64,000 nucleotides of DNA from Phycisphaerae bacterium (GTDB lineage Bacteria > Planctomycetota > Phycisphaerae > UBA1845 > UTPLA1): NCBI GenBank assembly GCA_035275405.1, contig DATEMU010000015.1, positions 558,001 through 622,000 of the forward strand, read 5' to 3'. A model generated the notes under the pieces. It did not search any database and was not told the origin of the DNA. It saw nothing but the letters and a program-made list of their open reading frames with translations. Shown here one piece after another: positions 33,681 through 50,482 of this stretch (its first letter is position 1; every line of letters starts with the position of its first letter). Made by a program: the position numbers and the translations under genes.

Positions 33681-33908
33681 ATGAGAGTGCTCTACTTAAA
33701 CAACGCGGGCGGCGGGTTCGCCGATTACATCGACGTCGAACCCGGCACCACGGTGGAGAAGTTCTTCAGCCAGAAGATGCCCAGCAACTCCGAGGCCGAC
33801 TATCTGATCCGCGTCAACCGCCAGCCGGTGGCCCGCAACCAGATGCTCCAGGAGAACGACCGCGTGAGCATAACTCCGACGAAGATCGAGGGCGCGCGGA
33901 TCGCCTGA
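33681..33908 (+). CDS. ThiS/MoaD-type ubiquitin-like protein (beta-grasp), 75 aa
   Basis: The start is the ATG at 33681 with an AAAGGA Shine-Dalgarno, not the Met 19 codons upstream. The 75-residue sequence follows the ThiS/MoaD pattern: strand RVLYLNN, strand [15 protein letters not shown], helix, [20 protein letters not shown], then [15 protein letters not shown]. The loop N-R-Q-P-V followed by a Leu and an Asn-Asp turn is characteristic. It lacks the usual free C-terminal Gly-Gly: Gly71 is followed by ARIA. The JAB peptidase of the locus could remove that tail to expose Gly71, as ubiquitin precursors are trimmed; this is inference. The E1-like enzyme at 49766 is the probable activator. A sulfur-carrier role is the alternative. 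Confidence 0.85.
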
Positions 33909-33933
33909 GAGTGTGGTTACCGAGATCATTCAT

Positions 33934-33980
33934 GGGGCATCCGTGGCGATTCGCGTTGCGGATGCCCCTTTTTCTTTTTT
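33934..33980 (+). terminator. Intrinsic terminator after the ubiquitin-like gene
   Basis: A perfect 10-bp stem GGGGCATCCG/CGGATGCCCC with a 15-nt loop, followed by TTTTTCTTTTTT. The stem and T-tract are closely similar to the hairpin before the E2-RING gene at 39144. Confidence 0.85.
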
Positions 33981-34032
33981 GAGACCCGCCTCAAATGAAA
34001 CCCGGCGGCAGGTTCAATGGAATCTCAGGCCA

Positions 34033-36444
34033 TTAATGATCTTGCAAAATTGCCGGCTGCGTCGTCGCTGTGACGCAGGGAAACTCCGGGGTCTTCCAGT
34101 CGACGAGGTCAAACGTTACGGGGTCGGGAAGCTCCGGTTTTTCGGCAATCGCACGACGGACACCATCTGACAGGGTAAGGCGCTCCACGATCTCGCCGTG
34201 TTGATTAAGGATCACAGAGAAGCTGAACAGTTTTCGGTTGCTCAATCCCAGCGAGTCGGAATTCATCCGTAGTTCCAAATATTGATCGGGGTCATAGGGA
34301 GAGGGAACATTGCTCCGCTCCGGGAATACACAAACGAACGGTTCTTGCTCAGCGAATATGACAGGACAGGGCATCTTGTACCACGCGGGCTGGTACCGCT
34401 CGCCCCTCCATTCGTCACCCGCGAAGCGCGGCCTCTCCCCGGGATTGTGGGGGTGAATCCACTTGTTGCTGATATCGCGGGGGGTGGGACGGATGGCAAA
34501 GATCACACGCGGGTGATTGGAGGCCAAACGCAGACCGTATTCTTTGTCGTCCATGTCGCCCTTGATCGCAGCGAACACGAGGAGGCCCGCCTTGGCCATC
34601 CAGTAGGCTTCCTCGATTCCGCCATCCTGCCAGGCCTGGAAAAGGAGGTCTCCGTTGAGGTTGTAGATGCGGAGAACCCCCTGCGAGCCGGGAGTGTGCA
34701 TGTAATAGGCGACGATCTCTTCGCCGGGATGGGCGTCGCCCGGAAATACGTCGAACATCCAAGCATAATGAACGGCGAATCCACCTGAAGAGTATTTCCG
34801 ACCCGAATCGAATCGCGGGCGCGGCCAGGCATCGTGCGGCATGGCGTCGATCGACTCCTGCTCGACGGTCCTGTGCCAGAGCGGTTCGTCGTAGGGGCCG
34901 TTGGCGTCGAACAGGCAGAGTTCACCTCGATGGGGCGAATCAGCGAACCTACCAAAGCCGAGCACCACGACCTTGCCGCCCCCCCATCTTGCGGGCCTGT
35001 TCGCCAGGTTCGCAAACGTGATGCTGCCGGGATCCGCAGTTTTCCACGGTTTCAAAACTCTTCCGCCAAGAGAATAGAGCGTGGCTTGATCCCCGGTGCG
35101 TACGAGTCGGCCTGAGGGCTCATCCCGTGTACGACCCAGTCTCGTGAACTCAAGGCGGGCCGGCTGGCCGTTCACGATCCAGAGCGAAAAGAAAGCCGAG
35201 CCCACGATGAGGGAAGCGATGGCGAGGCTTGCGAGCGCGATGCTCTTTTTCGGATGTCCGGCGGCCCAGCGGAGCATGAGCGAATAGGGCGTCGGCGGCC
35301 GGGCGGAAATTGGCTCGCCTCGGAGGTATTGGCGTATGTCGCCGGCCATGTCACTGGCGCTTGCGTAGCGCTTCGCCCGGTCCTTCTCTATGGCCTTCAG
35401 CACGATCGTCTCCACATCGCCGCGCAGCCGTCGATCGAAATTGCTTGGGCGAGTCGGCTCTTTTTCACAAATCACCCGCGCGGCCGAGTGGATGGTCATG
35501 TTCGATACGTCGTACGGCATTCGTCCCGTTAGCAATTCGTAGAGAATCACGCCTAGCGAATAGATGTCGGTCGTGGTGTCGATCTGGCTCGGGTCCGCCG
35601 CGCACTGCTCCGGGCTCATGTAGGCCAGCGTCCCGAGAAGCTGCCCGGCCTCGGTGTGCATCGTCGTCACGGCGATATCGGAATCGGTGCAACGGGCGAT
35701 GCCAAAGTCGATGATTTTCAGAAAGGCTTGAGACTTGGGGCTTGAGGCTTGGGGGGGAGTCGACGCGGGAGTTTCTGATCCCACGAGGATATTTGCGGGC
35801 TTCAGGTCGCGGTGGATGATGCCCTTCTGATGGCCGTGGTGTACGGCGTCGCAAAGCTGCAGGAAAAGATCGAGCCGATCGCGGATGCCATGCTCATTTT
35901 CGTTTGCGTGCTGTGTGATCGTCCGTACGTTTGGAATATATTCCATGGCGAAATAGTGCACCGTGGCACCGGCTTCCAGCCGGTGTGCCCCGGACTCATA
36001 GACCTGTGCAATGTTGGGATGCCGCAAATAGGCGAGTACGCGTGATTCGACATCGAATCGCCTCTCAGCCGACGCGGACCAGGCGCTCGATTGCATGACC
36101 TTTAGGGCGACGGGGCGGCGTGGGCTGGCTTGCTCGGCGAGATAGACCCTGCCCATGCCGCCGCGGGCGATCGTCTCCCTGATCGTATAGGAACCGATGG
36201 TCTGCCCGACGAGCGGATCGGAGCCTTTGGCAGTCGCCAGACCACGCAGCCCCTCGACCGTCGGCGGACGCTCCAGAAATTGCGGGCCGGCGCGGTCGTG
36301 GTCGCGCAGCAAACGCCGGGTACGCAACAGCAAGTCGGTGTCGCCGCCACAGCGGTTTTTCAGGAAGGCGTCACGGGCGTCGGGGGCGAGTTCTCGCGCG
36401 TCGCCGAATAGCTCATCGATCCGTTTCCACCGCTCGGAGCACAT
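34033..36444 (-). CDS. Membrane Ser/Thr protein kinase with C-terminal sensor domain, 803 aa
   Basis: After a planctomycete-type N-terminal helical domain (MCSERWKRIDELFGDAREL), residues about 88-370 form a Hanks-type kinase: IARGGMGRVYLAE, VALKVMQ, HRDLKPAN, DFG and SPEQ. A Pro/Ser-rich insertion (ETPASTPPQASSPKSQ) lies between the catalytic loop and DFG. One membrane span (IALASLAIASLIVGSAFFSL) follows. The C-terminal 370 residues are not TPRs; they contain beta-rich repeats (VVVLGFGRFADSPHRGELCL, VLRIYNLNGDLLFQAW) that look like a propeller-type sensor. The partner ECF sigma gene lies 18 bp upstream. The pair sits inside the interrupted ubiquitin-like locus. Confidence 0.9.
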   Translation of the reverse strand: MCSERWKRIDELFGDARELAPDARDAFLKNRCGGDTDLLLRTRRLLRDHDRAGPQFLERPPTVEGLRGLATAKGSDPLVGQTIGSYTIRETIARGGMGRVYLAEQASPRRPVALKVMQSSAWSASAERRFDVESRVLAYLRHPNIAQVYESGAHRLEAGATVHYFAMEYIPNVRTITQHANENEHGIRDRLDLFLQLCDAVHHGHQKGIIHRDLKPANILVGSETPASTPPQASSPKSQAFLKIIDFGIARCTDSDIAVTTMHTEAGQLLGTLAYMSPEQCAADPSQIDTTTDIYSLGVILYELLTGRMPYDVSNMTIHSAARVICEKEPTRPSNFDRRLRGDVETIVLKAIEKDRAKRYASASDMAGDIRQYLRGEPISARPPTPYSLMLRWAAGHPKKSIALASLAIASLIVGSAFFSLWIVNGQPARLEFTRLGRTRDEPSGRLVRTGDQATLYSLGGRVLKPWKTADPGSITFANLANRPARWGGGKVVVLGFGRFADSPHRGELCLFDANGPYDEPLWHRTVEQESIDAMPHDAWPRPRFDSGRKYSSGGFAVHYAWMFDVFPGDAHPGEEIVAYYMHTPGSQGVLRIYNLNGDLLFQAWQDGGIEEAYWMAKAGLLVFAAIKGDMDDKEYGLRLASNHPRVIFAIRPTPRDISNKWIHPHNPGERPRFAGDEWRGERYQPAWYKMPCPVIFAEQEPFVCVFPERSNVPSPYDPDQYLELRMNSDSLGLSNRKLFSFSVILNQHGEIVERLTLSDGVRRAIAEKPELPDPVTFDLVDWKTPEFPCVTATTQPAILQDH

Positions 36445-36462
36445 GATTCAATCCGCTCATCG

Positions 36463-37095
36463 TTATTGCCTTTCGACTTTGTCGGCCAGCATTCCGTAGA
36501 GTATCGCCCTCGCCAGATGCCACTGGTTGACCACAGTCCGCCTGGCCACGCCGAGCACCTCGGCGGTTTCATCAAGGCTTAGCCCCGCGAAGTACCGTAG
36601 CTGCACCATCTCCGCAAGGTCGGGCCGCTGCGCGCTGAGCTTTTCCAATGCCTCATCTACCGCCAGCACAAAGGCCGGATCGTCTTCGAGGGCGATCATG
36701 TCCTCGTGCAGGTCGAGCGGCCGGTTGGCGCCGCCGCGCTTGAGGCTCCCACGTCTACGTGCGTCATCGACGAGGATTTGGTGCATCGCCCGCGCGGCGG
36801 CGGCGAAAAAATGCCGCCGGTTCTCAAATGTGGCACATCCGCCCTCGGATGTGGCTGTGGCGTGTCCGCCCTCGGCCGTGTTGGAGATTGCACCCCCGAA
36901 GAGCTTCAGATACGCCTCGTGAACTAGGGCAGTCGGTTGGAGGGTCCGCCCGGCGGCCTCCCGGGCCATCTGGGCTTGGGCCATTTCACGGAGTTCGTGG
37001 TAGACGCAGGCCCAAAGCCGCTCGCGGGCCGTGCCGTCCCCCCGTCCGACGGCGGACAGAAGCTGGGTAATCGCATTGGTCGAGTCCTGCCGCAT
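36463..37095 (-). CDS. ECF sigma factor paired with the 803-aa kinase
   Basis: The 210-residue protein shows region 2 (WACVYHELREMAQAQMARE ... TALVHEAYLKLFG ... RRHFFAAAARAMHQILVDDA) and region 4 (RYFAGLSLDETAEVLGVARR ... TVVNQWHLARAILY). Compared with the homologue at 19294 it carries an extra Gly/Ala/Thr-rich insert (residues about 72-90, EGGHATATSEGGC) encoded by short tandem DNA repeats, an apparent slippage expansion within the sigma 2 region. It is co-oriented with and 18 bp upstream of its kinase gene. Confidence 0.9.
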   Translation of the reverse strand: MRQDSTNAITQLLSAVGRGDGTARERLWACVYHELREMAQAQMAREAAGRTLQPTALVHEAYLKLFGGAISNTAEGGHATATSEGGCATFENRRHFFAAAARAMHQILVDDARRRGSLKRGGANRPLDLHEDMIALEDDPAFVLAVDEALEKLSAQRPDLAEMVQLRYFAGLSLDETAEVLGVARRTVVNQWHLARAILYGMLADKVERQ

Positions 37096-37293
37096 GGACC
37101 ACCTGAATTAGAGAGCCAGACACAATTGTACCAGATTCGCCGCACCGATTTTGCCCTATTTGGCGAAGGATTTCGCATGTGAGGGTGGAACGAATGCTGG
37201 TTGTCAGCATCTTGTCATCCGCGACGCCACGGCATGGACGGCTCGTTTTTTCGGGCCGGTGTCTTTGGCGCAGCCACGAAAGGAATAATGAAG

Positions 37294-38871
37294 ATGTTTC
37301 GCAATACTCTTATGCACCGCCGGTGTTCTACAGTCGGGACGTGTATTCTTGCGACATTTGTGATGGGGCCAGCTGGCACCGTGCGAGCGGGCTTGGTCAT
37401 CACCGATACGCCGACGGCCGTTCCCGGAATGGCACCTGGTTGGTCTTCCACTTTTGTCAGTACAAACGCTACCCAGATGTTAACCGCGCACGGAGCCCCA
37501 ACTCGCCTGTACACCGCGAGTTGGAACGCGAGTTCCGGGCAATGGGATCCCTTTGTGGATATGGGGTTTCCGGATTGGGCGACGACTCCCTCGCTTTCGC
37601 CAGACGAGAACACGATGTATTACTCGCAGCACACGTTCTCGCCATACGAGACGAAGATTTATCGCTCGAGTTACTCGGGCGGTCTCTGGCAACCAGGAAC
37701 GCCGGTTCCTGGCCTTGGGGGTCCACAATGGCAGCACGGCCCGCTTTTCAACGGGCGCGATCTTTATTTCACGGAAGCGTACCATGACATTTGGAGCGCC
37801 CGCTACGATTCTAATACGGGACTGTTCGCGACGGCGCAGCCCGTTGCGTCCATCAACACGGTCTATGCCGAACAGCATGCATGGGTTTCGCGCGACGGTT
37901 CGACCATGGTGTTTGGCTCAGACCGTCCAGGAGGCTACGGCGGCGCTGACTTGTGGACTGCCGAATGGAATCACATCACGAACCAGTGGATCAACGTCAC
38001 GAATTTAGGGCCAATAGTCAACACTGCGAGCGACGAGTGGGCCCCTCTTTTCGCCGAGGGGGCAGAGGTCCTCTACTTCTCACGATCCGGTTACGAGATG
38101 CAGGTGAATGCTTCGATTCCCCAGCCGGGTTCGCTGGCGGTGCTCGACATCCGCCCCGGCGCCTGCCCCAATCCGCTCAATCGCCGAAGCCGGGGCGTGT
38201 TGCCCGTGGCCCTGGTGGGTGGCGCCGCGTTCGATGTCTCCGCCGTGGACCGGACCACGCTGCGGCTCCGCCGCCCCGACGGCGTCGGCGGGGAAGTCGC
38301 CCCCCACGAAGGTCCACCCGGGCCGCACACGACGATTGAGGATGCCGCCACGCCCTTTGACGGCGAAACCTGCGCCTGCCATGACCTGGCCGGCGACGAC
38401 GTCGACGACCTGATGATGCACTTCCGCGTCGATGACCTTGTCAGCGCATTGGAATTGGATGCCCTGCCCGACGGATCGGAGGTCGCGCTGGTGTTGACCG
38501 GCATGATGACCGACAGGACGAGCTTCTCGGCCACCGACTGCATGTGGCTGGTTCCACCCGGACCGGCGGCCCTGCGCATATCGTCTGATGCCCCCGGCGC
38601 GTTCATTGATGTCGGCGAGCCGGATGAAACCCTCGACGCCGGCGGCTTCGAGTCCTTCGAGCGATCCTACCTCTCGGGCACGGTCGTGACGCTTACCGCT
38701 CCGCCCTCGGTTGGTTCGCGGCGGCTGATCGGCTGGACGATCGACGGCGTCTTCCAGGCGGCCGGCCAAAGCAGCATCAGCCTCACCATCGGGCAGCAGG
38801 TCAGCGTGACGGCCATGTACGAAAGCCGCCCACGATCCAAAGGCGTGCAGTCGGTGATTCAGGAACAGTGA
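37294..38871 (+). CDS. Secreted WD40-like/PD40 propeller protein
   Basis: The AAAGGA at 37279-37284 fits the ATG at 37294 (MFRNTLMHRRCSTVGTCILA) best; an ATG two codons earlier is possible. A signal peptide ends near VRAG. Residues about 25-280 contain PD40-type blades (PSLSPDENTMYYSQHT, HAWVSRDGSTMVFGSDRPGG, DEWAPLFAEGAEVLYFSRSG). A domain with a conserved DIRPGACPNPLN start follows, and the C-terminal 110 residues form an Ig-like fold (LTAPPSVGSRRLIGWTIDG). Exported; function unknown. It faces away from the kinase-sigma pair and may share its regulation. The end lies 329 bp before the E2-RING gene. Confidence 0.8.
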   Translation: MFRNTLMHRRCSTVGTCILATFVMGPAGTVRAGLVITDTPTAVPGMAPGWSSTFVSTNATQMLTAHGAPTRLYTASWNASSGQWDPFVDMGFPDWATTPSLSPDENTMYYSQHTFSPYETKIYRSSYSGGLWQPGTPVPGLGGPQWQHGPLFNGRDLYFTEAYHDIWSARYDSNTGLFATAQPVASINTVYAEQHAWVSRDGSTMVFGSDRPGGYGGADLWTAEWNHITNQWINVTNLGPIVNTASDEWAPLFAEGAEVLYFSRSGYEMQVNASIPQPGSLAVLDIRPGACPNPLNRRSRGVLPVALVGGAAFDVSAVDRTTLRLRRPDGVGGEVAPHEGPPGPHTTIEDAATPFDGETCACHDLAGDDVDDLMMHFRVDDLVSALELDALPDGSEVALVLTGMMTDRTSFSATDCMWLVPPGPAALRISSDAPGAFIDVGEPDETLDAGGFESFERSYLSGTVVTLTAPPSVGSRRLIGWTIDGVFQAAGQSSISLTIGQQVSVTAMYESRPRSKGVQSVIQEQ

Positions 38872-39143: not shown

Positions 39144-39186
39144 GGGCATCCGCGACGCTGTCGCCGCGGGTGCCCCTTTTCTTTTT
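39144..39186 (+). terminator. Terminator-like hairpin directly before the E2-RING ribosome site
   Basis: Stem GGGCATCCGCG/CGCGGGTGCCC (one G-T pair), 10-nt loop, then TTTTCTTTTT. The Shine-Dalgarno GGAGG starts at 39187 and the ATG at 39200, so termination here would block expression of the downstream gene. This suggests attenuation, or the relic of an upstream gene end. It resembles the hairpin at 33934. Confidence 0.7.
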
Positions 39187-39199
39187 GGAGGACCTGAAC

Positions 39200-40336
39200 A
39201 TGAACCACGATACCCGCCGGCAGGCCCGCTGGGCCGGCCACCTGCATGCCGGCCTGCAGCGCCTCGGCCGGGGAAAGTTGACCGTGCTCTCAGACGAAAT
39301 TGGAAGGTTAGGCGCGCAGCTGGAACGCGTGCGTCAACTTCGGCTGCGGCTCATGACCTGCCTGGAGCGCGGCTGGCAGGCCGCCGCCCGCGATGTCCGT
39401 CGCGAACTTGACTACACCTTGGGCGATATCGACCGGGCGACGACGCAATGCGATCAGCTACTCCGGCGGAACGAATCGACCGCGCCCACGCCGCGCTTCG
39501 TCTTCGACGAACTCCGCCAGCTCCACGATGAGTTCGACGAGATCAAGTTCGACGCGGAGCACGCGATGCTCAGTGTCACGACCGAGCCGATCACCCTGGA
39601 GGGCATCCGCCTGGGCCGGTTCGAGATTCGTTTGGAGCTGGGCGGCCATTCCGATGCCGATCCCGCCTCCTTCCTGCGGATCGTCGCCCTGGAGCCCAAC
39701 CCGGCCTCCTGCGACTCGACCGTGACCCACCCGCATGTCCGCGATGAACGGATCTGCCTGGGCGAGGCGGCCGCGCCCATCCAGCAGGCCTTGGCCGACG
39801 GACGGGTCTGCGACCTGTTCATCCTGGTCCGCTCGGTCCTGCAGACCTACAACGCCGACTCGCCGTTCATCTCCCTGGCCAAGTGGGATGGCCGGCCCTG
39901 CCACGACTGTGGCTACTCGATGGATGACGAGGAGAGCTACTGGTGCGAGGGCTGCGAGCATGACTTTTGCGACCAGTGCGTGAGCTGCTGCCGCTCCTGC
40001 GACCAGTCCTATTGCAAGAACTGCCTGCGAGACTGCGCGATCTGTGGAAACGCCCACTGCGAGGCCTGCCTCCGCCGCTGCCGCGCCTGCGAGGAGTCGG
40101 TCTGCGCGGAGTGCCTGAAAGAGGATGTGTGTACGACCTGCCAAGAAGACAAGGAGCACGAGGATGCAAGTAATGACCAAGGATCCGATAGCAAGGCCGC
40201 CCAAGGCGGTGGAAACGAAGACGACCCTTCCGACGGAAACGGAAACGACCAAAGCGCCGGCCGAGTCGACAACGGCGAAGCTCGAAGGGTTGAAGGAGAC
40301 GATCAAGTCGCCGTCGCCGAGGCGGCCACGGCGTGA
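39200..40336 (+). CDS. E2-like (UBC-fold) domain fused to RING-like zinc domain, 378 aa
   Basis: Residues 1-125 are helical. Residues about 125-230 match the ubiquitin-conjugating E2 core: FEIRLEL strand, LRIVALEPNPAS, then THPHVRDERICLGE with H177-P178-H179 and Cys186 nine residues on, like the HPN ... C active site, followed by LFILVRSVLQTYNADSPF, equivalent to the E2 segment ending in SP-L. Residues 234-314 hold 21 Cys including ten CxxC pairs (C234/237 through C311/314), a treble-clef/RING-like array. The last 60 residues are acidic and disordered and overlap the JAB gene in another frame. Predicted role: E2 and E3 functions in one chain, receiving the 75-aa ubiquitin-like protein on Cys186. 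The family call is from motif reading, not a search. Confidence 0.8.
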   Translation: MNHDTRRQARWAGHLHAGLQRLGRGKLTVLSDEIGRLGAQLERVRQLRLRLMTCLERGWQAAARDVRRELDYTLGDIDRATTQCDQLLRRNESTAPTPRFVFDELRQLHDEFDEIKFDAEHAMLSVTTEPITLEGIRLGRFEIRLELGGHSDADPASFLRIVALEPNPASCDSTVTHPHVRDERICLGEAAAPIQQALADGRVCDLFILVRSVLQTYNADSPFISLAKWDGRPCHDCGYSMDDEESYWCEGCEHDFCDQCVSCCRSCDQSYCKNCLRDCAICGNAHCEACLRRCRACEESVCAECLKEDVCTTCQEDKEHEDASNDQGSDSKAAQGGGNEDDPSDGNGNDQSAGRVDNGEARRVEGDDQVAVAEAATA

Positions 40337-41021
40337 GATTCAGCTGCCCCCGCCGCCCGTCCTGCGCTTCAGCCCCACCGCCTGGGCGAAGCTCCAGTTC
40401 TTCTGCCATGCCGGCGAGACCGAGATCGGCGGCTTCGGGATCACGCCATCCTGCGACCTGCTCTACGTCGACGAGTTCGTGACCGTCCGGCAGCAGACCA
40501 GCGTCGTCAGCGTGGCCTTCGACGATGACGCCGTCGCCGACTTCTTCGAGGACCAGGTGATGGCGGGCCGTAAGCCCGAGCAGTTCATGAGATGCTGGTG
40601 CCATACCCATCCCGGCGATTCCCCGACGCCGAGCTGTACCGACGAGGAGACCTTTGCCCGCGTGTTCGGCCCGTCCGACTGGGCGATCATGTTCATCTTG
40701 GCCAAGGGCGGGCAGACCTACGCCCGGCTGCGATTCAACACGGGGCCCGGTGGGCACCTGCTGATCCCCGTGACCGTCGACTACTCGCAACCCTTCGCGG
40801 GCAGTGACCACGCGGCCTGGGAGGATGAGTACCACGCCCACATCTGGCCGCTCCTTTCGGCGAAGGGTTCGCCTCGCGCCGACATGGGCCTGGATTTCGG
40901 CGACCCGTGGCTGGAGGAGATGGAGAGGCACGAGAAGGTGCGGGCCGCGGCGATGGCGGAGGACGTGGAGCACTTTGGAACCTGGCCCACCAACGAGGAG
41001 TTTTGGCATGAAGGACGATAA
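40164..41021 (+). CDS. JAB/JAMM (Mov34/MPN) metalloisopeptidase, 285 aa
   Basis: The start at 40164 is fixed by AAGGAG at 40151-40156 and lies 173 bp inside the E2-RING gene in another frame. Residues 1-65 are a Thr/Pro/Lys-rich linker. The JAMM zinc motif is complete: Glu87 in GETEIGGFG and HTHPGDSPTPSCTD with His147, His149, Ser157 and Asp160 (H-x-H-x7-S-x2-D). Such enzymes cut isopeptide bonds or trim ubiquitin-like precursors. Here the substrate is probably the 75-aa protein at 33681. The C-terminal 80 residues are charged and helical. Its stop overlaps the next ATG. Confidence 0.92.
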   Translation: MQVMTKDPIARPPKAVETKTTLPTETETTKAPAESTTAKLEGLKETIKSPSPRRPRREIQLPPPPVLRFSPTAWAKLQFFCHAGETEIGGFGITPSCDLLYVDEFVTVRQQTSVVSVAFDDDAVADFFEDQVMAGRKPEQFMRCWCHTHPGDSPTPSCTDEETFARVFGPSDWAIMFILAKGGQTYARLRFNTGPGGHLLIPVTVDYSQPFAGSDHAAWEDEYHAHIWPLLSAKGSPRADMGLDFGDPWLEEMERHEKVRAAAMAEDVEHFGTWPTNEEFWHEGR

Positions 41022-41136: not shown

Positions 41137-41661
41137 CACGCGCGACTTGGCTTGATAGACCTGTTCGGGCGTCATGTCGAGCCGGGCGCAAACCTCCTCG
41201 ACGGAACACTCCTCGTACGACAGGAGTCGGAAAGCCTCGTGGTTCTTCTCCGAAACGCGAGATCGGACCTGCTCGACGCAGTACATCAGGTGCTGGTTTC
41301 GCCAGTTCGACTCCCAGGCCTCATCCGGCGTCGGCTCGGGGTCAGGCAGCGCGGCCATCTGTCCCGAGTCAGCGTGCTTCTCGCGGCGCTGCCGCAGCAG
41401 GTCGATCACCTTCCCGCTGGCGATGCGGTACAGCCAATTCTTGAATCCCCCCTTGGCCTTGTCATACTCGAACGCCGCGATCTTCCGGGCGACGACGGCG
41501 ATGCACTCGTCGCGAACATCCTCGGCGTCTTCCCGCGACAGCCCCCGTGCGCGGGCATAGCGATAGAGCAGCGGCGCATACAGGTCTTGAAAGTCTTTCC
41601 ACGCCTCCGCATCGCTGCGATCTCTAATCCGAACGAGCAGGCTGGCGCGGGTGGTGGTCAT
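41083..41661 (-). CDS. ECF sigma factor coupled to zinc-finger kinase
   Basis: The 192-residue protein has region 2 (LYAPLLYRYARARGLSREDA ... FKNWLYRIASGKVIDLLRQR) and region 4 (LLSYEECSVEEVCARLDMTP ... EQVYQAKSRVLKRVRQLL). Unlike the other pairs, the sigma gene is downstream of the kinase and overlaps its stop by 4 bp (ATGA), so sigma synthesis is coupled to kinase synthesis. The gene end lies about 14 bp from the point where the small gene after JAB is cut. Confidence 0.9.
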   Translation of the reverse strand: MTTTRASLLVRIRDRSDAEAWKDFQDLYAPLLYRYARARGLSREDAEDVRDECIAVVARKIAAFEYDKAKGGFKNWLYRIASGKVIDLLRQRREKHADSGQMAALPDPEPTPDEAWESNWRNQHLMYCVEQVRSRVSEKNHEAFRLLSYEECSVEEVCARLDMTPEQVYQAKSRVLKRVRQLLRELEPGLAE

Positions 41662-44600
41662 GAAGGTTGTGTCGTCACCGGTGCGGAAGATTGTGGGGCG
41701 GACACGCCCGTTGGCCGGGTCAACGGCGGGTTGGCGGTCGGCCGTGTTGTGGGCTGCGACGCGGCAGCTTGGCGGAACTTGGCGAGGTTGACTTCCAGCT
41801 CCTGGCGGACCCGCGAATCGCCGGGCGGCAGCAGTGCGATCGCCTTCTCCTCAGTCTTGAGCGCCTCGCCGAATCTCCCAGCGCGGTACTGCGCCACGCC
41901 CAGCGTATTCATGATCCAGCCATTCTTGCCGCCGTTGGCTTCCACCGCTCGCCGGGCATAGCCGAGCCCCGCCACCGAGTCGCGAAGGTCGGTCGGCTCG
42001 ACGGTCAACAACGTCCATGCGTAGATGTTGAGGTCCCACGCGGAGGCCCCCGGTTGGTCCGCTGCCGCGCGCTGGTATTGGATCTGCTCGACGACCAGCG
42101 GCCTGGCGTCTTCGAACCGCTTTTGCTTGACGTACAGGTTGATCAGATCGCCGCGGACGCACATTGTATCCGCATGCGACGCGCCGGAAATCTTTAATCG
42201 CGCTGCAAGCGCCGCACGGAATAGCGGTTCCGCGTCGGCGTATATGCCCTCGGCATAGTAGGCGTAGGCGAGGTTGCGCATCGACCTCAGAGTATCGGCG
42301 TGCTCCGGCCCTAGCACGCGGCGCCTTATTTCCAACGTCTGCTCGTAGAGCTTCTGGGCGTCTTGGTATTTGCCTTGGGCGTAGTGGCAATTGGCGAGCA
42401 ATTCCATCGACACTAGCGTGTCGGTGTGCTCGTCACCCAGCAGCTTACGTTGTATCGCCAGGGCCTCACGAACGAGCGGCTCGGCCGCGGCGAGGTCGCC
42501 TTTCGCCTGCAGCAGTCGCGCCAATTGGACTAGGCCAGCCGCCACTTCCGGGTGTTCGTCGCCTCGTAGCCTGCGATTAACGGCCAGTGCCTCGCGATAC
42601 AGTCGCTCTGCCGCCGCGAGATCGCCCTTGGCTTGCAGTGGATGCGCCAGTGCGATCAGTGTGATCGCCACCTCCGGGTTCTTTTCGCCGAGTATTATGG
42701 TACACATGCGGGGAATCATGTCTACCAAGGGCTGCGGCAACGGATCGCGCTGCTGCGGAAACGCAATGGAGACGAAGTTCGCTTTGTAAGTCTTAAGCAC
42801 TTCCGCATCGTCCTTACTCAGTGCTCCGAAAAGCCCGGATAACCCCCTGGGAAGCTCCAGGGCCAAAGCAACGTCCTTATTCTGGGATCGCAGGGCCAAC
42901 ACAAGGCTAGTCCACGCCCTTAATGTATCTCGATGACTTTCACCGTGGGCTTTTCGATAAATGGCCAATGCCTCGCGATAAAGCGGCTCGGATGCGGTGG
43001 CGTTTCCTCGGTTCATTTGTAAGTCGGCAAAATTATAGAGGGTGCCGGCTACATCCTCGTGGTCGTTGCCCTGGAGTCTGCGGCGCAGCGCGACCGCCTC
43101 CTCGTACAACCGCTGGGCCTCAACATAGTCACGTTTGTTGCCCGCCAACCAGGCTATATGTTCCAGGCTCGTCGCCACGTCCAGATGCTCCCCACCCAAC
43201 TCGCGCCTGCGCAATTCCAACGCCGCGCGCAGGTATGGTGCCGCGGTGTCGAAGAGTCCCAGGCGGTCATACATTGTCCCGAGGGCGTCATCAATCTGCG
43301 CCAGTATGAGCGGCTGGCCGGCAAACTCCTGTTCGAGTGTGGCAGCGGCCCGCTTCAAGATGTAATCATCTATTACCCGCCGGGCCAGGTCGACCGGATG
43401 TCCGGGCGCGACGGCCTCGTCGAGTGCCTTCAGCGTCGCCTCGATCTCCGGCTGGGTACGCTTCCGGCGGTTGGGCCACTCGTCCACGGTCTGACGCTCC
43501 AAGCCGGCCTTCACCTGGTCCCGCAGACTTTGCACGATCCCGCGTCCCATGGCCGGCACGTCAATGTCGGCGAGCATCCGGGATTGGAATTCCGCGACAG
43601 TTTGCGTTTCTTTCTGACGCTGCTGAGCGTCCACGCGGGCCGCATCCGCTTCCTCGCGACGCTGCTCTGCGAGTTTACGCTGCTCTGCTTCAGCCGTCAG
43701 GGCCTTTTCAGCCCGCCGGCGCTCCGCCTCGGCACTCTCACGCTCGCGGCTCTGCTGCTTCTCCGCCACCACGGCGCGATCGCGCGCCTTGCTGGCCGCG
43801 CGCCAGAGGGCGACAGAAACGATCAAGCTGACTGTGATGATCGCCACGAAACTTGCTGCCAGCGCCACCGGTAGGCGATACCGCCGCAGACTCTTGCGAA
43901 GCACATAAAAGGCGCTGTCCCGCTTGGCCTCGATCGCCTCGCCGCCGAGATATCGCTCCACGTCCCGGCCCAGGGCCTCGGCCGACGCATAGCGACGGTC
44001 CTTTTCCTTGGCCAGGGCCTTGAGGACGATCGTCTCCACCTCGTCGTTGACCTGGCGGCGGACCGTCGAGGGCCTCGTCGGCTCAGTCTCGGCGATATGC
44101 CGCAATACCTCACCCATCTGCCCGACCACCGGGTACGGGTACTTGCCGGTCAGCATCTCATAGAGAATCACGCCCAAGCTGTACACATCGGTGCGGATGT
44201 CGATCAGGTTGGGGTCGCCCCTGGTCTGCTCCGGCGAGGCGTAGGCCAGCGTGCCCATGAACTCGCCGGTGACCGTCATGGGTGCTCCATCGTGGAGATC
44301 CAGTCCCGCGGCCTTGGCCAGGCCGAAGTCCACGACGTGCGGCTGGCCGTCGGCGTCGACCAGAATGTTGCCGGGCTTGAGGTCTCGGTGGATCACTCCG
44401 CGCTGGTGGGCGTAGTTCACGGCGGCGCAGATTTTGTTGAGAAGCTGCAAGGTGTCGTCAATGCCCAGGTGCTTGTCGGACAGGTACGCGTCCAGCGGCT
44501 GGCCGTGGATGTACTCCATGGCGAAGAAATGCCGGCCGCCGGCCACGCCGCTGTCGTAGATGGTGACGATGTTGGGATGCTGGAGGCTGGCGACCAGGTC

Positions 44601-45002
44601 GATCTCGCGCTCGAAGCGATGGCGCTGTTTCGGCGAGGCGTAGGGGCCTTGCAACAGAACTTTCAGCGCGACTGTTCGCTTCGTCGTCTTCTGCACCGCC
44701 TTGTAGACGACGCCTTGTCCGCCGCGATGGATTTCGCGGAGGATTTCGTATCCTTCGATAGATTCGTTGACTGGGAGGCCGGCCTGTGCGGAAACCCTTG
44801 GGCTCGCGGGCCGGAGCAGCGTCTCGTCAGGTCGGGCCTCTTTTATCTGGCCGAAGAGCTTCTCGTCCGTCCGGCGGGCCTCGATCCGCCCGCGGCAGGC
44901 TTCGCAGACCGCGGCATGCTCCTCTGCGCGGCGCTGCTCCTGAGCTGAAAGCGTACCCGCCAACAGGCTTTCGATTTGAGCAGGTGTGAGGCAGCCGGCC
45001 AT
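41658..45002 (-). CDS. Membrane Ser/Thr kinase with N-terminal anti-sigma-type zinc finger and TPRs, 1114 aa
   Basis: The N-terminus contains His29-x3-Cys33-x2-Cys36 (HAAVCEAC), the ZAS/zf-HC2 signature of zinc-binding anti-sigma factors. A Hanks kinase follows at about 80-350: IHRGGQGVVYKA, VALKVLLQ, HRDLKPGN, DFG, SPEQ. A membrane span lies at about 385-405 (LPVALAASFVAIITVSLIVS), then a long charged coiled coil and about ten TPR units (ALAVNRRLRGDEHPEVAAGL type). It is translationally coupled to the sigma gene below. The architecture suggests one protein that both holds and phosphorylates its sigma factor in response to a periplasmic TPR signal; that is inference. Confidence 0.92.
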   Translation of the reverse strand: MAGCLTPAQIESLLAGTLSAQEQRRAEEHAAVCEACRGRIEARRTDEKLFGQIKEARPDETLLRPASPRVSAQAGLPVNESIEGYEILREIHRGGQGVVYKAVQKTTKRTVALKVLLQGPYASPKQRHRFEREIDLVASLQHPNIVTIYDSGVAGGRHFFAMEYIHGQPLDAYLSDKHLGIDDTLQLLNKICAAVNYAHQRGVIHRDLKPGNILVDADGQPHVVDFGLAKAAGLDLHDGAPMTVTGEFMGTLAYASPEQTRGDPNLIDIRTDVYSLGVILYEMLTGKYPYPVVGQMGEVLRHIAETEPTRPSTVRRQVNDEVETIVLKALAKEKDRRYASAEALGRDVERYLGGEAIEAKRDSAFYVLRKSLRRYRLPVALAASFVAIITVSLIVSVALWRAASKARDRAVVAEKQQSRERESAEAERRRAEKALTAEAEQRKLAEQRREEADAARVDAQQRQKETQTVAEFQSRMLADIDVPAMGRGIVQSLRDQVKAGLERQTVDEWPNRRKRTQPEIEATLKALDEAVAPGHPVDLARRVIDDYILKRAAATLEQEFAGQPLILAQIDDALGTMYDRLGLFDTAAPYLRAALELRRRELGGEHLDVATSLEHIAWLAGNKRDYVEAQRLYEEAVALRRRLQGNDHEDVAGTLYNFADLQMNRGNATASEPLYREALAIYRKAHGESHRDTLRAWTSLVLALRSQNKDVALALELPRGLSGLFGALSKDDAEVLKTYKANFVSIAFPQQRDPLPQPLVDMIPRMCTIILGEKNPEVAITLIALAHPLQAKGDLAAAERLYREALAVNRRLRGDEHPEVAAGLVQLARLLQAKGDLAAAEPLVREALAIQRKLLGDEHTDTLVSMELLANCHYAQGKYQDAQKLYEQTLEIRRRVLGPEHADTLRSMRNLAYAYYAEGIYADAEPLFRAALAARLKISGASHADTMCVRGDLINLYVKQKRFEDARPLVVEQIQYQRAAADQPGASAWDLNIYAWTLLTVEPTDLRDSVAGLGYARRAVEANGGKNGWIMNTLGVAQYRAGRFGEALKTEEKAIALLPPGDSRVRQELEVNLAKFRQAAASQPTTRPTANPPLTRPTGVSAPQSSAPVTTQPS

Positions 45003-45089
45003 CGACGTGACTCCGCGAGACGGAAACCACTCCCTCGATCAGAACTCCATTCTACCATCCTGCCTCTCCAAGAGGCCTGACGCGGATCA

Positions 45090-45886: not shown

Positions 45887-46144
45887 ATGAAGAGAATACG
45901 ACGCTTGGGAATCTGTAGCGCGGTCCTGATGGGCCTGCTGACGACGATCGGCAGCACGGGCTGCGATGAGAGTCAGCCCAATGGCTGCCCGATCGATTAC
46001 AGCCAAGACGGCCACATTGGCTGGGATGAAGGACTTCGTTTCCTCAGCGACCAAACCGGGCAAAGCACTTTGGCCGGTAGCCGCACGGCCCAGCAAGCAT
46101 GTCAGCAGCTGAGCACCGATGTCGATCAATACATCAAGCGGTGA
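45887..46144 (+). CDS. Small lipoprotein, 85 aa
   Basis: MKRIRRLGICSAVLMGLLTT leads to a lipobox-like IGSTGC. The mature part is short (CPIDYSQDGHIGWDEGLRFL) with one possible helical repeat, and ends with DQYIKR. The upstream in-frame Met at 45845 gives an unlikely hydrophilic extension. The Shine-Dalgarno is weak. Unrecognised; plausible as an exported small protein. Confidence 0.6.
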   Translation: MKRIRRLGICSAVLMGLLTTIGSTGCDESQPNGCPIDYSQDGHIGWDEGLRFLSDQTGQSTLAGSRTAQQACQQLSTDVDQYIKR

Positions 46145-46273
46145 ACCTGGGGAGGCTCTGTGCTGGCGGGAGTGGTGCTGCATCTCAGGTCGGATGCAGC
46201 AACGCTCCTTCTTAATCATCCTATCCTAAAGGTTGCCCTTCCGGGGGCAGGTCAATAAGCGAGGAGGAGACCC

Positions 46274-46693
46274 GTGTGGCGGCTACGAAAGATAGAAGAG
46301 AACCCTGCGGCATGTTTCGAGGCGCTAACAGAGGTTTGCCGCCTGGCGATCTCAGCCGACGGAACCCTGAATATTGTCCTCAACGGCCCCACGCTTACTT
46401 ACGAAGACCTTCGCTTGGTGATGGACCGAGTCGAGGCTCCCGGCGTTGAGCCCATGTTGCAACAGGTCGTCTTTGACTTTGGACAGGTCGGGGAAATTCA
46501 GACGTCATGGACAGTCGTACTGGCTTTTCTCATCCGGTTCGCGACGCGGGCATCGTTTGCTTGTCACGTCCGCAACCTAAGCGGCCAGCCGGCGAACATC
46601 TTCACGCTCTATCGGCGAAGCCACGATGTAATGCGACTCTTGGCCACCGGTACGCCGAAGTTTCGCCTGCCTGCCCATCGCCGGGCCGGATGA
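46274..46693 (+). CDS. STAS-like domain protein, 139 aa
   Basis: GTG start with a GAGGAGGA Shine-Dalgarno. The sequence has the STAS/anti-sigma-antagonist rhythm: beta strand GTLNIVLNGPTLTYEDLRLV, then QQVVFDFGQVGEIQTSWTVV (strand followed by the helix carrying the conserved Ser/Thr), then a helix and RASFACHVRNLSGQPANIF. The usual D-S-x-G turn is replaced by I-Q-T-S-W. It could act in a partner-switch regulating a sigma factor or kinase nearby, but no anti-sigma kinase is adjacent. The assignment rests on fold-like pattern only. Confidence 0.55.
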   Translation: MWRLRKIEENPAACFEALTEVCRLAISADGTLNIVLNGPTLTYEDLRLVMDRVEAPGVEPMLQQVVFDFGQVGEIQTSWTVVLAFLIRFATRASFACHVRNLSGQPANIFTLYRRSHDVMRLLATGTPKFRLPAHRRAG

Positions 46694-46885
46694 ATGCGTG
46701 GCCGAGTTCATGGCGCGAGGTGTCCATCGAGGAGGAAGAGCCGGAAGGCCTTGGCGTCTACGGGAGATTGAACATGTGCATCGAAACCGTTTGCTTTTTT
46801 TCTGCGCACGAAAACTTCGCGAGCCTTGTCCATGATCCGGTTGCCGGGCGAAGATTGAAAAAACCTTGGAATGGTGGCGATCGGC

Positions 46886-48640
46886 TCACTCCGGACGGAT
46901 GTAGTAAGAGTTACTTGCTGTAGGCCGCGGGCGCATGTACGTCGGTGGATACGGTTCGTCGGGCTGGGTCGCCGGCGTCGTGGGGGCAATCTTGCGAAAA
47001 ATGTGGATCTCCTGGCGCTGCGGATCCAAAGGAGCCGCCTTAAAGGTTTTCAACCAGTGGTAGTGTTTTGTGTCCTCCGCAATGGCCTCCAACGGCAGGC
47101 GGTGGAAGTAACTCGGGCTGTAGAGCGAATCCACGAGGATGATCGTGCCGGCCGGCAGGGAGGCGAACAGCGCCGGGCCTTTGTGGGCCCGGGGATCTTC
47201 GATCAGGTTGAGTTCATACGAAAACCACGGGTTGGCGGCGAAGAGAGGAGCGGTGTCGAGGCCTTCCGTGCGTAGCCATTGCGTGGCTCGAGCAACCTGT
47301 GCCTGTGCCGGCTTGATGCGGAGTGGACGAACAATGACACCAAACTGCTGGAGAATAGTGAACACCAAAATGCCGAGTGCGATGATTCGCGGCCAGGCGC
47401 ACCAACGCGAACGGACGGCATAAGGGAAAAGCGTGACGATCACCGCGAGGATTGCGACGGCGGTGAGCAGGGTTATCCACTCCGGGCTCGCGTGCGTGGA
47501 AATGCGCCCGGCGCGGCGCTCGCTCTCATAGGAGAGCAGACCGACGATCCAGACCGACGCGAGAACGAAGGCCTGCCCGAGGGCGGCGCGACGGGAACGA
47601 CCGAAGTCGATGAGTCTCTCCCATCCGGCGACGATGAGGATCGCGGTCAGCGGGGCGACCGCGACCATGAAGCGGCCGTATCCGCCGGAGGCGAAGATAC
47701 CGAGTGCCGTGATAGCGCAGTGGGTGAGGAAGAACACGCCGACCAGCGCGGGGATCAGCCCCTGCCGCCGGCGGATCAACATCCCACCACCGACCAGGGC
47801 GAGACCGAACAGCACCGGCGGAACGGCCTCCAGGGCGTGGGGTAGATAGCCCAATGGATGGGTCGCGGAATACTCGGTCAACCCTCGAGGCGCGAAGAAC
47901 ACCCGCGCCGGCCAGTCCCCAAGAAATCCGCGATAAGCAATGTTGTACGCAATCGGCGCCCACAGGGTCAGCAGGGCGGCCTGGAGTTTGCGCGAAGCTC
48001 GCAGATCGACCAGGGCTAGCCCGGCCCACCAGACGGGTACCAGGATGAGCGCCTCATGCCGGGTGAGCAGGGCGAGGGAGAAAACCAGGGCGGCCCAACG
48101 CGCCCGACCGGATTGAAGCAGGGTGATGGCGGCGATGAGATAAAACGCGGTGAAGTTCTCAGTGAGCGTGGTGGTGGCCAGGAGGGCGTTGAGCGGCTGA
48201 AGGTAGCAGGCGAGGACGACGGTCCATGCCCGGCGAGTCCCGAGGCGCATCGCCACCCGCGCCGCCAGGTACGCGCCGGCCGCCGTGACCACGGCCGACA
48301 GTCCCCGGCAGAGGTGCCACGCCACATCGCGGTCGCCGATCCACGCGACGGCCGCGAGGGGGATCGTCGCCCCCGGACGTCCCCAGATGTGTAGCAGATA
48401 CTCGGGATACCAGTGCGCCCAGCGGGCCATGAGGAAGTGCACCAGGTCGTCGTCGTGGTGGACTCCATCGGAGAAGAGGCCGAGCACCAGCGTCCCGATC
48501 AGGCAGGGAACCAGGGCCGCGAGCACGGCGCGATGGGCGGCGGGGTCGAGTGGGTTTGCTGTTTCCCCATCGAGTCTGGAAGCGGGTACCTGCCCTGGGG
48601 CGAGATCCATCGTTACAGCCCGGAGAGCCGAATCGGCCAT
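46886..48640 (-). CDS. Multi-spanning glycosyltransferase (GT-C / ArnT-PMT type), 584 aa
   Basis: A polytopic membrane protein with roughly ten to twelve hydrophobic segments. Its first periplasmic loop begins with DGVHHDDDLVHFLMARW, the acidic motif typical of GT-C glycosyltransferases that use polyprenyl-phosphate sugars. The C-terminal 110 residues form a soluble domain (WLRTEGLDTAPLFAANPWFS ... GTIILVDSLYSPSYF). Such enzymes modify lipids, polysaccharides or secreted proteins in the cell envelope. The first Met is used; a Met ten codons later is possible, and neither has a clear Shine-Dalgarno. Confidence 0.8.
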   Translation of the reverse strand: MADSALRAVTMDLAPGQVPASRLDGETANPLDPAAHRAVLAALVPCLIGTLVLGLFSDGVHHDDDLVHFLMARWAHWYPEYLLHIWGRPGATIPLAAVAWIGDRDVAWHLCRGLSAVVTAAGAYLAARVAMRLGTRRAWTVVLACYLQPLNALLATTTLTENFTAFYLIAAITLLQSGRARWAALVFSLALLTRHEALILVPVWWAGLALVDLRASRKLQAALLTLWAPIAYNIAYRGFLGDWPARVFFAPRGLTEYSATHPLGYLPHALEAVPPVLFGLALVGGGMLIRRRQGLIPALVGVFFLTHCAITALGIFASGGYGRFMVAVAPLTAILIVAGWERLIDFGRSRRAALGQAFVLASVWIVGLLSYESERRAGRISTHASPEWITLLTAVAILAVIVTLFPYAVRSRWCAWPRIIALGILVFTILQQFGVIVRPLRIKPAQAQVARATQWLRTEGLDTAPLFAANPWFSYELNLIEDPRAHKGPALFASLPAGTIILVDSLYSPSYFHRLPLEAIAEDTKHYHWLKTFKAAPLDPQRQEIHIFRKIAPTTPATQPDEPYPPTYMRPRPTASNSYYIRPE

Positions 48641-48730
48641 TGAATTCGGCGCAACGTGTCATCGCCGAGCGCTATGCCGTTCTTTGGCCAACGGCGACCC
48701 AGTATAAGCGACTTTTGGTTGGTCTCTCGA

Positions 48731-49492
48731 TCAGCGCATTGATCGCTTTGCGCGCGAGGCGAGTGCGACGACGGCGAGGCTGAGCAGCGAGAGCGAGGCC
48801 GGTTCGGGAATGTACTGCGTGAACAGCAGGCCGCTGGCCGTCAGGTTGTAATAGTTGACGCCTCCCAGCGTCTCAAAGCCGGACGTGGTGATCACGTCGC
48901 CGGGGTTCGCCCCCGTGATGCGGAAAAAATAGATATCCACTCCCTTGTTGGCATCTTGAACCGTGGTGATGAGGGTGCTGTCGCCCGCCCCGCCCGTCGC
49001 CTGCTTGAAGCGCAGGCCATCGGGATAGTCCCAGGGGCCGTCTCCCGTATCGGTGAGGTAACCAATGTAGAATTCGGACGGGGCGCCGGCGCCGATGGTG
49101 ATGTTCAGTAGCTCCTTTTCGAGATTGGAGGGACTGAAATGGTAGGTCAGCCCGCTGTGCACCAGGGTGCCGGTCTGGGGATTGACGATGTTGGCATAGC
49201 TGTTGGAGCGGTAATACGAGTTGGCGCCTGCGGTGGTCACGCTGGTGATGTAGGGAGGCAGGCTCGAGAGGCGAACTGGACCGAAGGGGATGGGTCCACT
49301 GGAGGTGGGCTCGCCGTCCAGGGAGGTCGCGTACAAGTCGTACCCATCGGAGCCGTAGGTCAAGGTACCGCTGGGACCGGCGTCGTTGATCAATGCGGCA
49401 TACGAAATGAGGGTGGCGGGGGCATTCTGGACCCACGGGCCGACGGAAAGTACGAAGAGGACAAGGTAATTCCGGCCTTTGCGGCGAGGCAT
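48731..49492 (-). CDS. PEP-CTERM surface protein, 253 aa
   Basis: The signal peptide MPRRKGRNYLVLFVLSVGPW is followed by a beta-rich domain (GTLTYGSDGYDLYATSLDG, GDSTLITTVQDANKGVDIYF). The C-terminus is a classic exosortase signal: PEPASLSLLSLAVVALASRA followed by KRSMR. The protein should be exported, then cleaved and anchored or released by an exosortase encoded elsewhere. Start supported by AAAGGG upstream. It closes the block between the JAB gene and the E1-like gene. Confidence 0.85.
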   Translation of the reverse strand: MPRRKGRNYLVLFVLSVGPWVQNAPATLISYAALINDAGPSGTLTYGSDGYDLYATSLDGEPTSSGPIPFGPVRLSSLPPYITSVTTAGANSYYRSNSYANIVNPQTGTLVHSGLTYHFSPSNLEKELLNITIGAGAPSEFYIGYLTDTGDGPWDYPDGLRFKQATGGAGDSTLITTVQDANKGVDIYFFRITGANPGDVITTSGFETLGGVNYYNLTASGLLFTQYIPEPASLSLLSLAVVALASRAKRSMR

Positions 49493-49709
49493 GTTAGGCC
49501 CTTTTTGTAAATGCGCGGGTAAACTTCGCTTTTCGAACGATCAACTGCACCAACGCCGGGCCCACCCGCGTGTAGTCCGCCCCAGGGATCGAAACGGCAC
49601 ACAACTCCTCCGATTAGACACATTTCACAGCAGGGAGTCAACGAACCTCGACTCAGCAGTCCGATAAGGGTCGCTCGGCGCTTACGGGTGACTTCGGATG
49701 CATCTTTCC

Positions 49710-49726
49710 TGCGCGCAAAGCGCGCA
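49710..49726. repeat. Perfect 7-bp hairpin upstream of the E1-like gene
   Basis: TGCGCGC and GCGCGCA with an AAA loop, 40 bp before the start codon. No T-tract. It may be an RNA hairpin or operator. Confidence 0.45.
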
Positions 49727-49765
49727 TATTACTTGCCTGAGGAAAACTGAAAGGAAGGAACAAAC

Positions 49766-50482
49766 ATGAATCAATCTACAAACTCTGAGCTTGCCGACCG
49801 CGACCTCCGCCAGCGGGACATCATCCCGCCCGAGCGGCTGGCGGCCTGCCGGGCTACCGTCGTGGGCGTCGGGGCGATCGGCCGGCAGGTCGCCCTGCAA
49901 CTGGCGGCGATGGGCATCTCGGCGCTGCAGCTTATCGACCCTGATACCGTCGAGACTGTGAACCTGGCGCCGCAGGGCTACCTGGAGGATGACCTGGGCC
50001 GGTCGAAGGTTTCGGCGACGGCCGACCTGTGCCAGCAGATCCATCACCGCCTGGAAACACTGGAGCACCAGGAACGCTTCCGCCGCAGCATGGAGATCGG
50101 CAACGTGTTGTTCTGTGCCGTGGATTCGATCGAGACGCGGCGGCTGATCTGGCAGGCGGTCAAGGACCGGGTCGAGTTCTTCGGTGACGGCCGAATGTCC
50201 GCCGAGGTGCTTCGCGTCCTGACCGTCGCCGACGCCGCTGGGTATCGCCACTACGCGACGACGCTGTTTGCCGCAGCCGAGGCCTACGGCGGGACCTGTA
50301 CGGCCAAAAGTACGATCTACTGCGCCAACATCGCGGCCGGCCTCATGGTCGCCCAGTTCGCCAAGTTCCTGCGAAAGCTGCCGGTCGAGGCGGACCTTCA
50401 ACTCAATCTGCTGGCGGCGGAGTGGAGCGTGGGCGCCATGTCCGATCGGGACGGTCCCAGCAAGGTGGCCTGCCGTTCGTGA
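49766..50482 (+). CDS. ThiF/E1-like ubiquitin-activating enzyme, 238 aa
   Basis: The ATG has AAGGAAGGA upstream. The Rossmann-like adenylation domain has VVGVGAIGRQVA (G34-x-G36-x2-G39), LIDPDTVETVN with Asp58 and Asn66, then DLGRSK (Asp76, Lys81), and a second Asp (FCAVDSIETR, Asp120): the ATP-binding set of ThiF/MoeB/E1 enzymes. Cys178 in GGTCTAKS is positioned like the ThiF active-site Cys. The CxxC zinc pairs of MoeB/ThiF are absent, as in other streamlined bacterial E1 versions. It would adenylate the C-terminus of the 75-aa protein and hand it to Cys186 of the E2-RING protein. It lies 8.7 kb from the JAB gene on the same strand. Confidence 0.9.
   Translation: MNQSTNSELADRDLRQRDIIPPERLAACRATVVGVGAIGRQVALQLAAMGISALQLIDPDTVETVNLAPQGYLEDDLGRSKVSATADLCQQIHHRLETLEHQERFRRSMEIGNVLFCAVDSIETRRLIWQAVKDRVEFFGDGRMSAEVLRVLTVADAAGYRHYATTLFAAAEAYGGTCTAKSTIYCANIAAGLMVAQFAKFLRKLPVEADLQLNLLAAEWSVGAMSDRDGPSKVACRS

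Follow-up and report, generated by a model that had tools for sequence, protein, structure and literature searches.

A putative ubiquitin-like conjugation cassette with a joined E2 and zinc array, found in planctomycetes, on viral contigs and, with its genes split apart, in a Phycisphaerae genome

Bacterial operons that encode a ubiquitin-like protein (Ubl) together with E1, E2 and JAB proteins and a RING domain have been cited for Planctomycetes, Actinobacteria and Acidobacteria (Burroughs, Iyer and Aravind 2011, as cited in PMC4197634). Here we describe such a set of genes in a Phycisphaerae bacterium, in a window of 64,000 nucleotides of contig DATEMU010000015.1; all coordinates below refer to this window unless another sequence is named. 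Four genes of its plus strand code for a Ubl, an E2-like protein joined to a zinc-binding array, a JAB/JAMM metallopeptidase and an E1-like adenylating enzyme. We propose that they and their relatives probably constitute a self-contained cassette for reversible Ubl conjugation, with planctomycete phages and integrated elements as its carriers.

The preliminary description of this locus had stated that bacterial Ubl/E1/E2/JAB operons, planctomycetes included, were already described, and the citation in PMC4197634 bears this out. The RING-containing operons, as characterized there, share their parts list and their phylum with our family, and the two are quite possibly the same family. Because such operons had already been reported for Planctomycetes, newness can lie in architecture and carriage only. 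Measured against the description given by the citing paper, it comprises the single chain of E2 and zinc array, the Gly-Ala rule of the Ubl, the poly-Ubl genes of phages, a conserved hairpin and carriage by phages. No report of phage-borne cascades of this kind was found in the searched literature, which does not prove their absence. The preliminary description mentions neither the Gly-Ala pair, the hairpin and the association with phages and mobile elements nor that the split layout belongs to this genome in particular.

Other described systems resemble the family in part. In a variant described in PMC7159879 the Ubl is fused to E2 and the RING is separate, whereas here E2 and zinc array form one chain and the Ubl stands alone. 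Operon type 6d (Iyer et al. 2006, PMC1779556) has a stand-alone Ubl with conserved C-terminal glycine, JAB, E1 and a stand-alone E2, as here; its E2s, however, lack the classical upstream histidine and no zinc array is described for them, while our family has both. The operon of Caldiarchaeum subterraneum (PMC5654768) likewise unites ubiquitin, E1, E2, RING and Rpn11/JAMM, the last of which removes a precursor tail, the same role as we propose for JAB; in contrast to our family, its E2 and RING are separate genes, its mature ubiquitin ends in Gly-Gly and its proteins are closely eukaryote-like. Bil and type II CBASS employ bacterial Ubl-type conjugation with reversal by JAB, similarly to the present reading, but neither has a RING-like part comparable to the zinc array. 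BilA is a two-Ubl protein and the window Ubl a single domain, and the match to the BilD model, of 31 bits, is confined to the ThiF core that such proteins share; the family cut-offs of Bil are not reached. Cap2 is an E2-E1 fusion that conjugates a cyclase, whereas E1 and E2 are separate genes here, and the Cap3 model scores 18.6 bits against a cut-off of 200. Generic E1-E2 and JAB similarity is all that PADLOC reports, without calling a defence system. Operon type 6d is, we assume, the PRTRC system; the window E1 reaches 27.7 bits where PRTRC_ThiF has its cut-off at 144.75, and none of the PRTRC models of NCBIfam fits any of the other proteins.

The preliminary description had placed four plus-strand genes in the window, and all four open reading frames (ORFs) are indeed open and intact: the Ubl gene (33681..33908, 75 amino acids), the gene of E2 and zinc array (39200..40336, 378 amino acids), the JAB gene (40164..41021, 285 amino acids) and the E1-like gene (49766..50482, 238 amino acids). 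Relatives of the E2-zinc-array protein occur in 11 of 294 Planctomycetota genomes and, with a few marginal matches, in 28 of the 298 genomes searched within the window's class, the window genome being included in both counts. Their spread is sporadic (23 of the 231 good genomes of the class) and one genome may hold as many as six copies. All 15 loci first examined have Ubl, E2-zinc, JAB and E1 in this order on a single strand, as do nearly all of 42 longer stretches. When 84,980 species were scanned independently with the Ubl alignment as query, 62 of 80 loci showed the same order, most of the remaining ones being cut by contig ends. The joint occurrence of the four genes elsewhere, which the preliminary description had left to be sought, is thus seen in about 60 loci: about 60 other planctomycete loci present them as one compact four-gene operon, and counting viral contigs, Ubl, E1, E2-like, JAB and RING-like domains are encoded together in about 60 bacterial loci and nine viral contigs. 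Since relatives with the same residues exist in dozens of genomes, in the same order at nearly every locus of sufficient length, the four genes are not chance ORFs. Almost all carriers are Planctomycetota, among them the isolates Rhodopirellula sp. SM50 and Lacipirellula limnantheis, the latter with two copies. Lone matches in metagenome-assembled genomes labelled SAR324, Emcibacter, Actinomycetes and Hydrogenedentota may be binning errors. Individual loci deviate in detail. The E2-zinc gene of locus L010 (genome G266) contains an in-frame TGA and is probably a broken copy or an assembly error. An additional stretch, probably a gene, lies between hairpin and E2 gene in L103 (5621-6437) and L125 (3119-3941).

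The E2-zinc-array protein consists of a helical hairpin (residues 3-90), a UBC-like part (98-230), a CxxC region (234-314) and an acidic tail. Its HPH motif, Cys186 and ten CxxC pairs, named in the preliminary description, are all present. In the UBC-like region, taken as residues 96-230 (39485..39889), HPH177-179 precedes C186 (codon 39755-39757). H177-P-H179, C186, G188, R202, D205, Y217, W229 and the first eight cysteines of the array are invariant in 69 sequences, and C186 is kept in all divergent phage members too. Of the findings by which the preliminary description would have been refuted, none occurred. An invariant cysteine with an upstream HPN-type motif is the arrangement expected of E2 enzymes. 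In nearly all members HPH lies seven residues before C186, with histidine in place of asparagine; HPN in its canonical form is seen in phage member L174, and another E2 of phage origin, one that lacks the zinc array, retains the Cys and the Gly. The AlphaFold model (pLDDT 95.1) contains the helical hairpin 3-90, then a helix, a four-strand sheet, the HPH-Cys loop and helices in residues 98-215, followed by the CxxC array. The order of elements in residues 98-215 is UBC-like, but the C-terminal helices are missing. Profile-profile comparison with three eukaryotic E2s was weak overall (P 0.07), yet in register at the active site, from the HPH through the Cys to the helix after it: the best local match pairs HPH with HPN, the two cysteines with each other and YNxDSP with PNPDDP. 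The zinc-binding array (39899..40141) comprises ten CxxC pairs from C234 to C314, the first four being invariant in the 69 sequences. The spacing of these four (C234-C267) is CxxC-x11-CxxC-x4-CxxC-x3-CxxC, without histidine and with six further CxxC, as opposed to the C3HC4 pattern of RING; the only profile matches of the array, all of marginal E-value, are to B-box, RING and TFIIH p44 domains. Of the RING-like region fused to E2 that had been predicted, the ten CxxC pairs in the same chain stand, and the region itself proves to be an all-cysteine array that is RING- or B-box-like only. The array might have E3 activity.

The JAMM motif of the third gene is complete, as the preliminary description had it, with E87, H147-T-H149, S157 and D160. 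These residues (E87, H147, H149, S157 and D160) are invariant in 17 sequences and fit the JAMM pattern of E, HxHP, x(5-7), S, xx and D; the stretch H147-T-H149-P-x6-S157-x2-D160 is encoded at 40602..40643. The window JAB is a sub-threshold Prok-JAB match, and its true start may lie further downstream, because the 5' end of the ORF overlaps the E2 gene. The identification of an E1/ThiF enzyme at 49766 holds as well (PF00899, 1.2e-20, 74 bits, above cut-off). Across 22 sequences GVGxxGRQ, D58, D60, N66, K81, D120 and C178-T179 are invariant, and the nucleotide-binding GxGxxG and ATP-site residues of ThiF/MoeB/E1 proteins are present. C178 (codon 50297-50299) is the candidate catalytic residue of this ThiF fold, and C178-T179 presumably corresponds to the catalytic Cys-Thr of E1 enzymes (C187 in MoeB, and eukaryotic E1s). 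A P-loop-like ORF with a weak E1 match (1e-9), seen in L080 (11024-11458), is probably spurious.

The Ubl, modelled by AlphaFold from an alignment of 64 relatives, adopts a beta-grasp fold (pLDDT 90.6). All top structural matches of the model are ubiquitin-like (TM 0.6-0.7, prob 1.0), those in Foldseek being ubiquitin, MoaD and SUMO, and its PDB neighbours include ubiquitins, SUMO, MoaD, TtuB and, as second match, the ubiquitin of Caldiarchaeum. The protein had been called ThiS/MoaD-like, in line with MoaD among these neighbours and with a weak ThiS match of the window Ubl. It had also been said to have 75 residues and no Gly-Gly, and it does end in KIEGARIA, with the pair G71-A72. Gly-Ala occupies this C-terminal site in 84 of 86 distinct sequences and Gly-Gly in one, so that the Gly-Gly end typical of ThiS/MoaD sulfur carriers is not a trait of the family. 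It is followed by a hypervariable tail of 0-51 mostly unrelated residues; seven of the 86 Ubls stop exactly at the alanine and none at the glycine. Among the 11 viral Ubls three stop at alanine (L171, L172 and L178) and one member has Gly-Gly. A tandem poly-Ubl gene is present on viral contigs L178 and L179, its internal junction also reading GA. The Gly-Ala rule, the exact alanine ends and the GA junctions of poly-Ubl favour a mature terminus at Gly-Ala, which would be produced by JAB trimming; alternatively, JAB may cleave after the glycine. Cyclases conjugated by Cap2, with either Gly or Ala as their last residue (PMC10097602), offer a precedent for terminal alanine. In L023, L027, L032, L035, L123 and L126 the long Ubl tails resemble one another in a stretch of the W-E-P/A-D/H-N type and are unlike other tails.

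In most of the compact operons the spacer between the Ubl and E2 genes holds a strong stem-loop, then a run of Ts and the E2 ribosome site. The stem threshold is passed by 75% of 60 spacers vs 5% of shuffles and 16% of the regions just upstream of Ubl. Nine of 13 base pairs covary, with pair-preserving changes on both sides in 24 alignable copies. The simplest use of the hairpin would be that of an internal terminator, lowering the enzymes relative to the Ubl. The window has two copies, one on each side of its first gap. The first, terminator-like with 15 bp and a T-run, lies on the plus strand directly 3' of the Ubl gene (33934..33968). The second (39144..39175), of the same type with a T-run, lies on the same strand directly 5' of the E2 gene and of the Shine-Dalgarno-like GGAGG in front of it. 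Two such copies are expected if the first break arose by recombination between two operon copies or by spacer duplication, which is how we suppose this gap may have originated.

A scan of IMG/VR returned 11 contigs with the Ubl. The four genes are recognisable on nine of them; the E2 of L181 is very divergent, and L171 stops just after the Ubl. Terminase large subunit is encoded on eight of the 11 (three by PF03237, three by phrog_675, two by phrog_38), and the viral contigs also code for DNA polymerase, Sak4, exonuclease and SSB, to which the larger ones add nicotinamide phosphoribosyltransferase, RNA ligase and similar genes. Sequenced plasmids and cultured phages gave no match. As the operon resides on IMG/VR contigs, mostly together with terminase, we conclude that phages and mobile elements, judged by contig content, carry the module about. 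L178 (4020-7220) and L179 (4072-7014) encode, upstream of their main operon, a second E2-like protein (HGPH...C, without zinc array) and a second divergent E1; each of these phage contigs apparently holds two cascades.

Genes around the operon vary with lineage. The upstream module of L173, a contig of 70 kb, consists of DUF1257-like, TOPRIM-like, AAA+ ATPase and further ORFs and recurs in more than 25 bacterial loci; in other loci an HSP90-like GHKL ATPase (for example L090:3216-4880) and a DUF2958 protein occupy that place. A Ycf46-like AAA+ ATPase, mostly with DUF1257 (Ycf35-like), precedes the Ubl in many loci (L173:6664-8157, L180:15781-17322) and possibly provides the Ubl system with an ATP-driven partner. 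Of 46 loci long enough to show such a gene, 13 have the AAA+, nine the HSP90-like one and none has both; being lineage-specific and mutually exclusive, these neighbours were rejected as core parts, and neither is present beside the window copy. Just 5' of the window Ubl gene, on the plus strand, lie P0005 (32008..32451, 147 amino acids, near the operon in 9-10 other loci) and P0006 (32448..33284), a PD-(D/E)XK exonuclease of phage recombination type (phrog_69 1.4e-23, phrog_1218 5e-16). They recur in few loci, so they were rejected as fixed parts, and they are possibly remnants of a carrier element. Further out on the minus strand are a giant RHS/YD-repeat-like protein of 2234 amino acids (23559-30263) and a secreted subtilisin-like protein of 2099 amino acids (51621-57920).

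Several results weigh against the proposed cassette. In Foldseek the E2 model meets known E2s at rank 7 (human UBE2H) and rank 9 (one from Leishmania), with weak E of 0.4-0.6; the UBC fold suggested earlier finds agreement in the order of elements of a confident model (pLDDT 95) and weak matches in the structural search. The VIA structure search was filled by the N-terminal coiled coil and covered residues 8-96 only; known E2 folds are absent from its list because the coiled coil swamped it. None of the 69 members convincingly matches Pfam E2 or RING models, and searches of the single window proteins against Pfam, NCBIfam, PADLOC and PHROGs named neither an E2 nor a RING. The E2 and RING labels therefore derive from motifs, from conservation and from the structure model; homology to UBC proteins is likely. 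For the E1, comparison was made with MoeB residues as given in PMC12355090: the equivalent of its ATP-contacting R73 (NxxRQ) is Pro, Thr or Ser across the family, and we therefore speak of an E1-like enzyme and not of a canonical E1. Finally, no terminase or integrase was identified beside the window genes, and it is in relatives that phage carriage is seen.

The cassette probably serves in phage-host or element-host conflict, where it may benefit the phage, in takeover or assembly, the element, or the defence of the host. By one proposal, planctomycete phages encode their own complete cascade, with E2-RING-like single chains, a Gly-Ala end and in some cases poly-Ubl, that modifies host or virion proteins, the bacterial copies being derived from prophages or elements; we advance this tentatively, at a little under even chances. 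By another, which departs from the phage- and element-borne cassette proposed at the outset solely in who profits, Ubl conjugation would provide bacterial immunity, as in Bil and type II CBASS, and phage copies would be captured genes or prophage-encoded defence against other phages. We give this a substantial chance, of about two in five in plain terms. Those bacterial Ubl-type/E2/JAB systems whose function was tested act in defence (PMC10097602; for Bil, the summary in PMC11354881), the distribution is patchy with several copies per genome, and serine recombinases and integrases lie near the operon in several loci. The similarity seen by PADLOC is generic, however, and on large viral contigs the operon stands among replication and nucleotide-metabolism genes, as would be expected of phage takeover genes.

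The preliminary description called the pathway compact and, at the same time, split. The former does not hold in the window, where Ubl and E2 are separated by 5.3 kb and JAB and E1 by 8.7 kb; the latter does, and the split layout is a peculiarity of this genome, the operon being compact in nearly all relatives. Both gaps are filled by opposite-strand kinase, sigma-factor and other chromosomal genes. Ser/Thr protein kinase genes lie inside them at 34033-37095 and 41658-45002, one adjoining an ECF-type sigma factor gene. Hairpin copies aside, no convincing simple repeats were detected at the insertion borders. The window copy is split by rearrangement, with all four genes still intact and every invariant residue in place. 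It could nevertheless be a decaying, nonfunctional remnant of a family that is real elsewhere. The distances and intervening genes, the lack of an AAA+ or HSP90-like partner gene beside it and the absence of the operon from the rest of its taxonomic family, as far as sampled, speak for this. Yet besides the intact ORFs, the window retains the overlap of E2 and JAB, the ribosome sites and the two hairpins, and comparison with the nearest relative shows constraint. This relative, L099 of a Phycisphaerales genome, has a compact operon and an E1 75% identical to that of the window; dN/dS is ~0.19 for E1, 0.34 for JAB and 0.42 for Ubl, with 0.67 for the faster E2 protein. Such values indicate past constraint and do not prove function after the split. 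On balance we regard decay of the window copy as less likely than not.

Very improbable is a sulfur-carrier pathway, in which a thiocarboxylate carrier of ThiS/MoaD/TtuB type would be activated by the ThiF-like enzyme, JAB would clip by-products and the 39200 product would not be an E2: although 60 of 64 Ubl members match Pfam ThiS (best 8.4e-7), the E1 is closest to ThiF/MoeB models and some sulfur carriers also make conjugates, the Ubl ends in Gly-Ala and a variable tail instead of free Gly-Gly, genes of thiamine or molybdopterin synthesis or of tRNA thiolation were not seen to recur beside the operon, the E2-like protein with invariant HPH-C always adjoins, and the distribution is mobile and sporadic.

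The reversible conjugation cassette that we prefer would work as follows. JAB would trim the Ubl precursor to its mature Gly-Ala C-terminus, and the single-domain E1 would adenylate the Ubl and then bind it as thioester on C178. From there the Ubl would be handed to C186 of E2, whose own C-terminal zinc array may serve as a RING-like E3 within the same chain or as an adaptor for substrates. A target would then receive the Ubl, and JAB would later take it off. The hairpin after the Ubl gene would cause more Ubl than enzymes to be made. Gene set, fixed order, catalytic residues, Ubl fold, Gly-Ala, covarying hairpin and terminase-bearing contigs are read directly from sequences or models; from them we infer each catalytic step, the E3 role and the part in conflict.

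If this reading is true, the family presents a natural minimal ubiquitin-type pathway of four small genes that could be reconstituted in one tube. It would be a system in which to ask whether Gly-Ala can replace Gly-Gly and how a tethered zinc module serves E2, and it would bear on the use of ubiquitin-like tagging by phages as weapon or tool. It also offers a countable family for asking how ubiquitin signalling originated and how it moved between viruses and bacteria.

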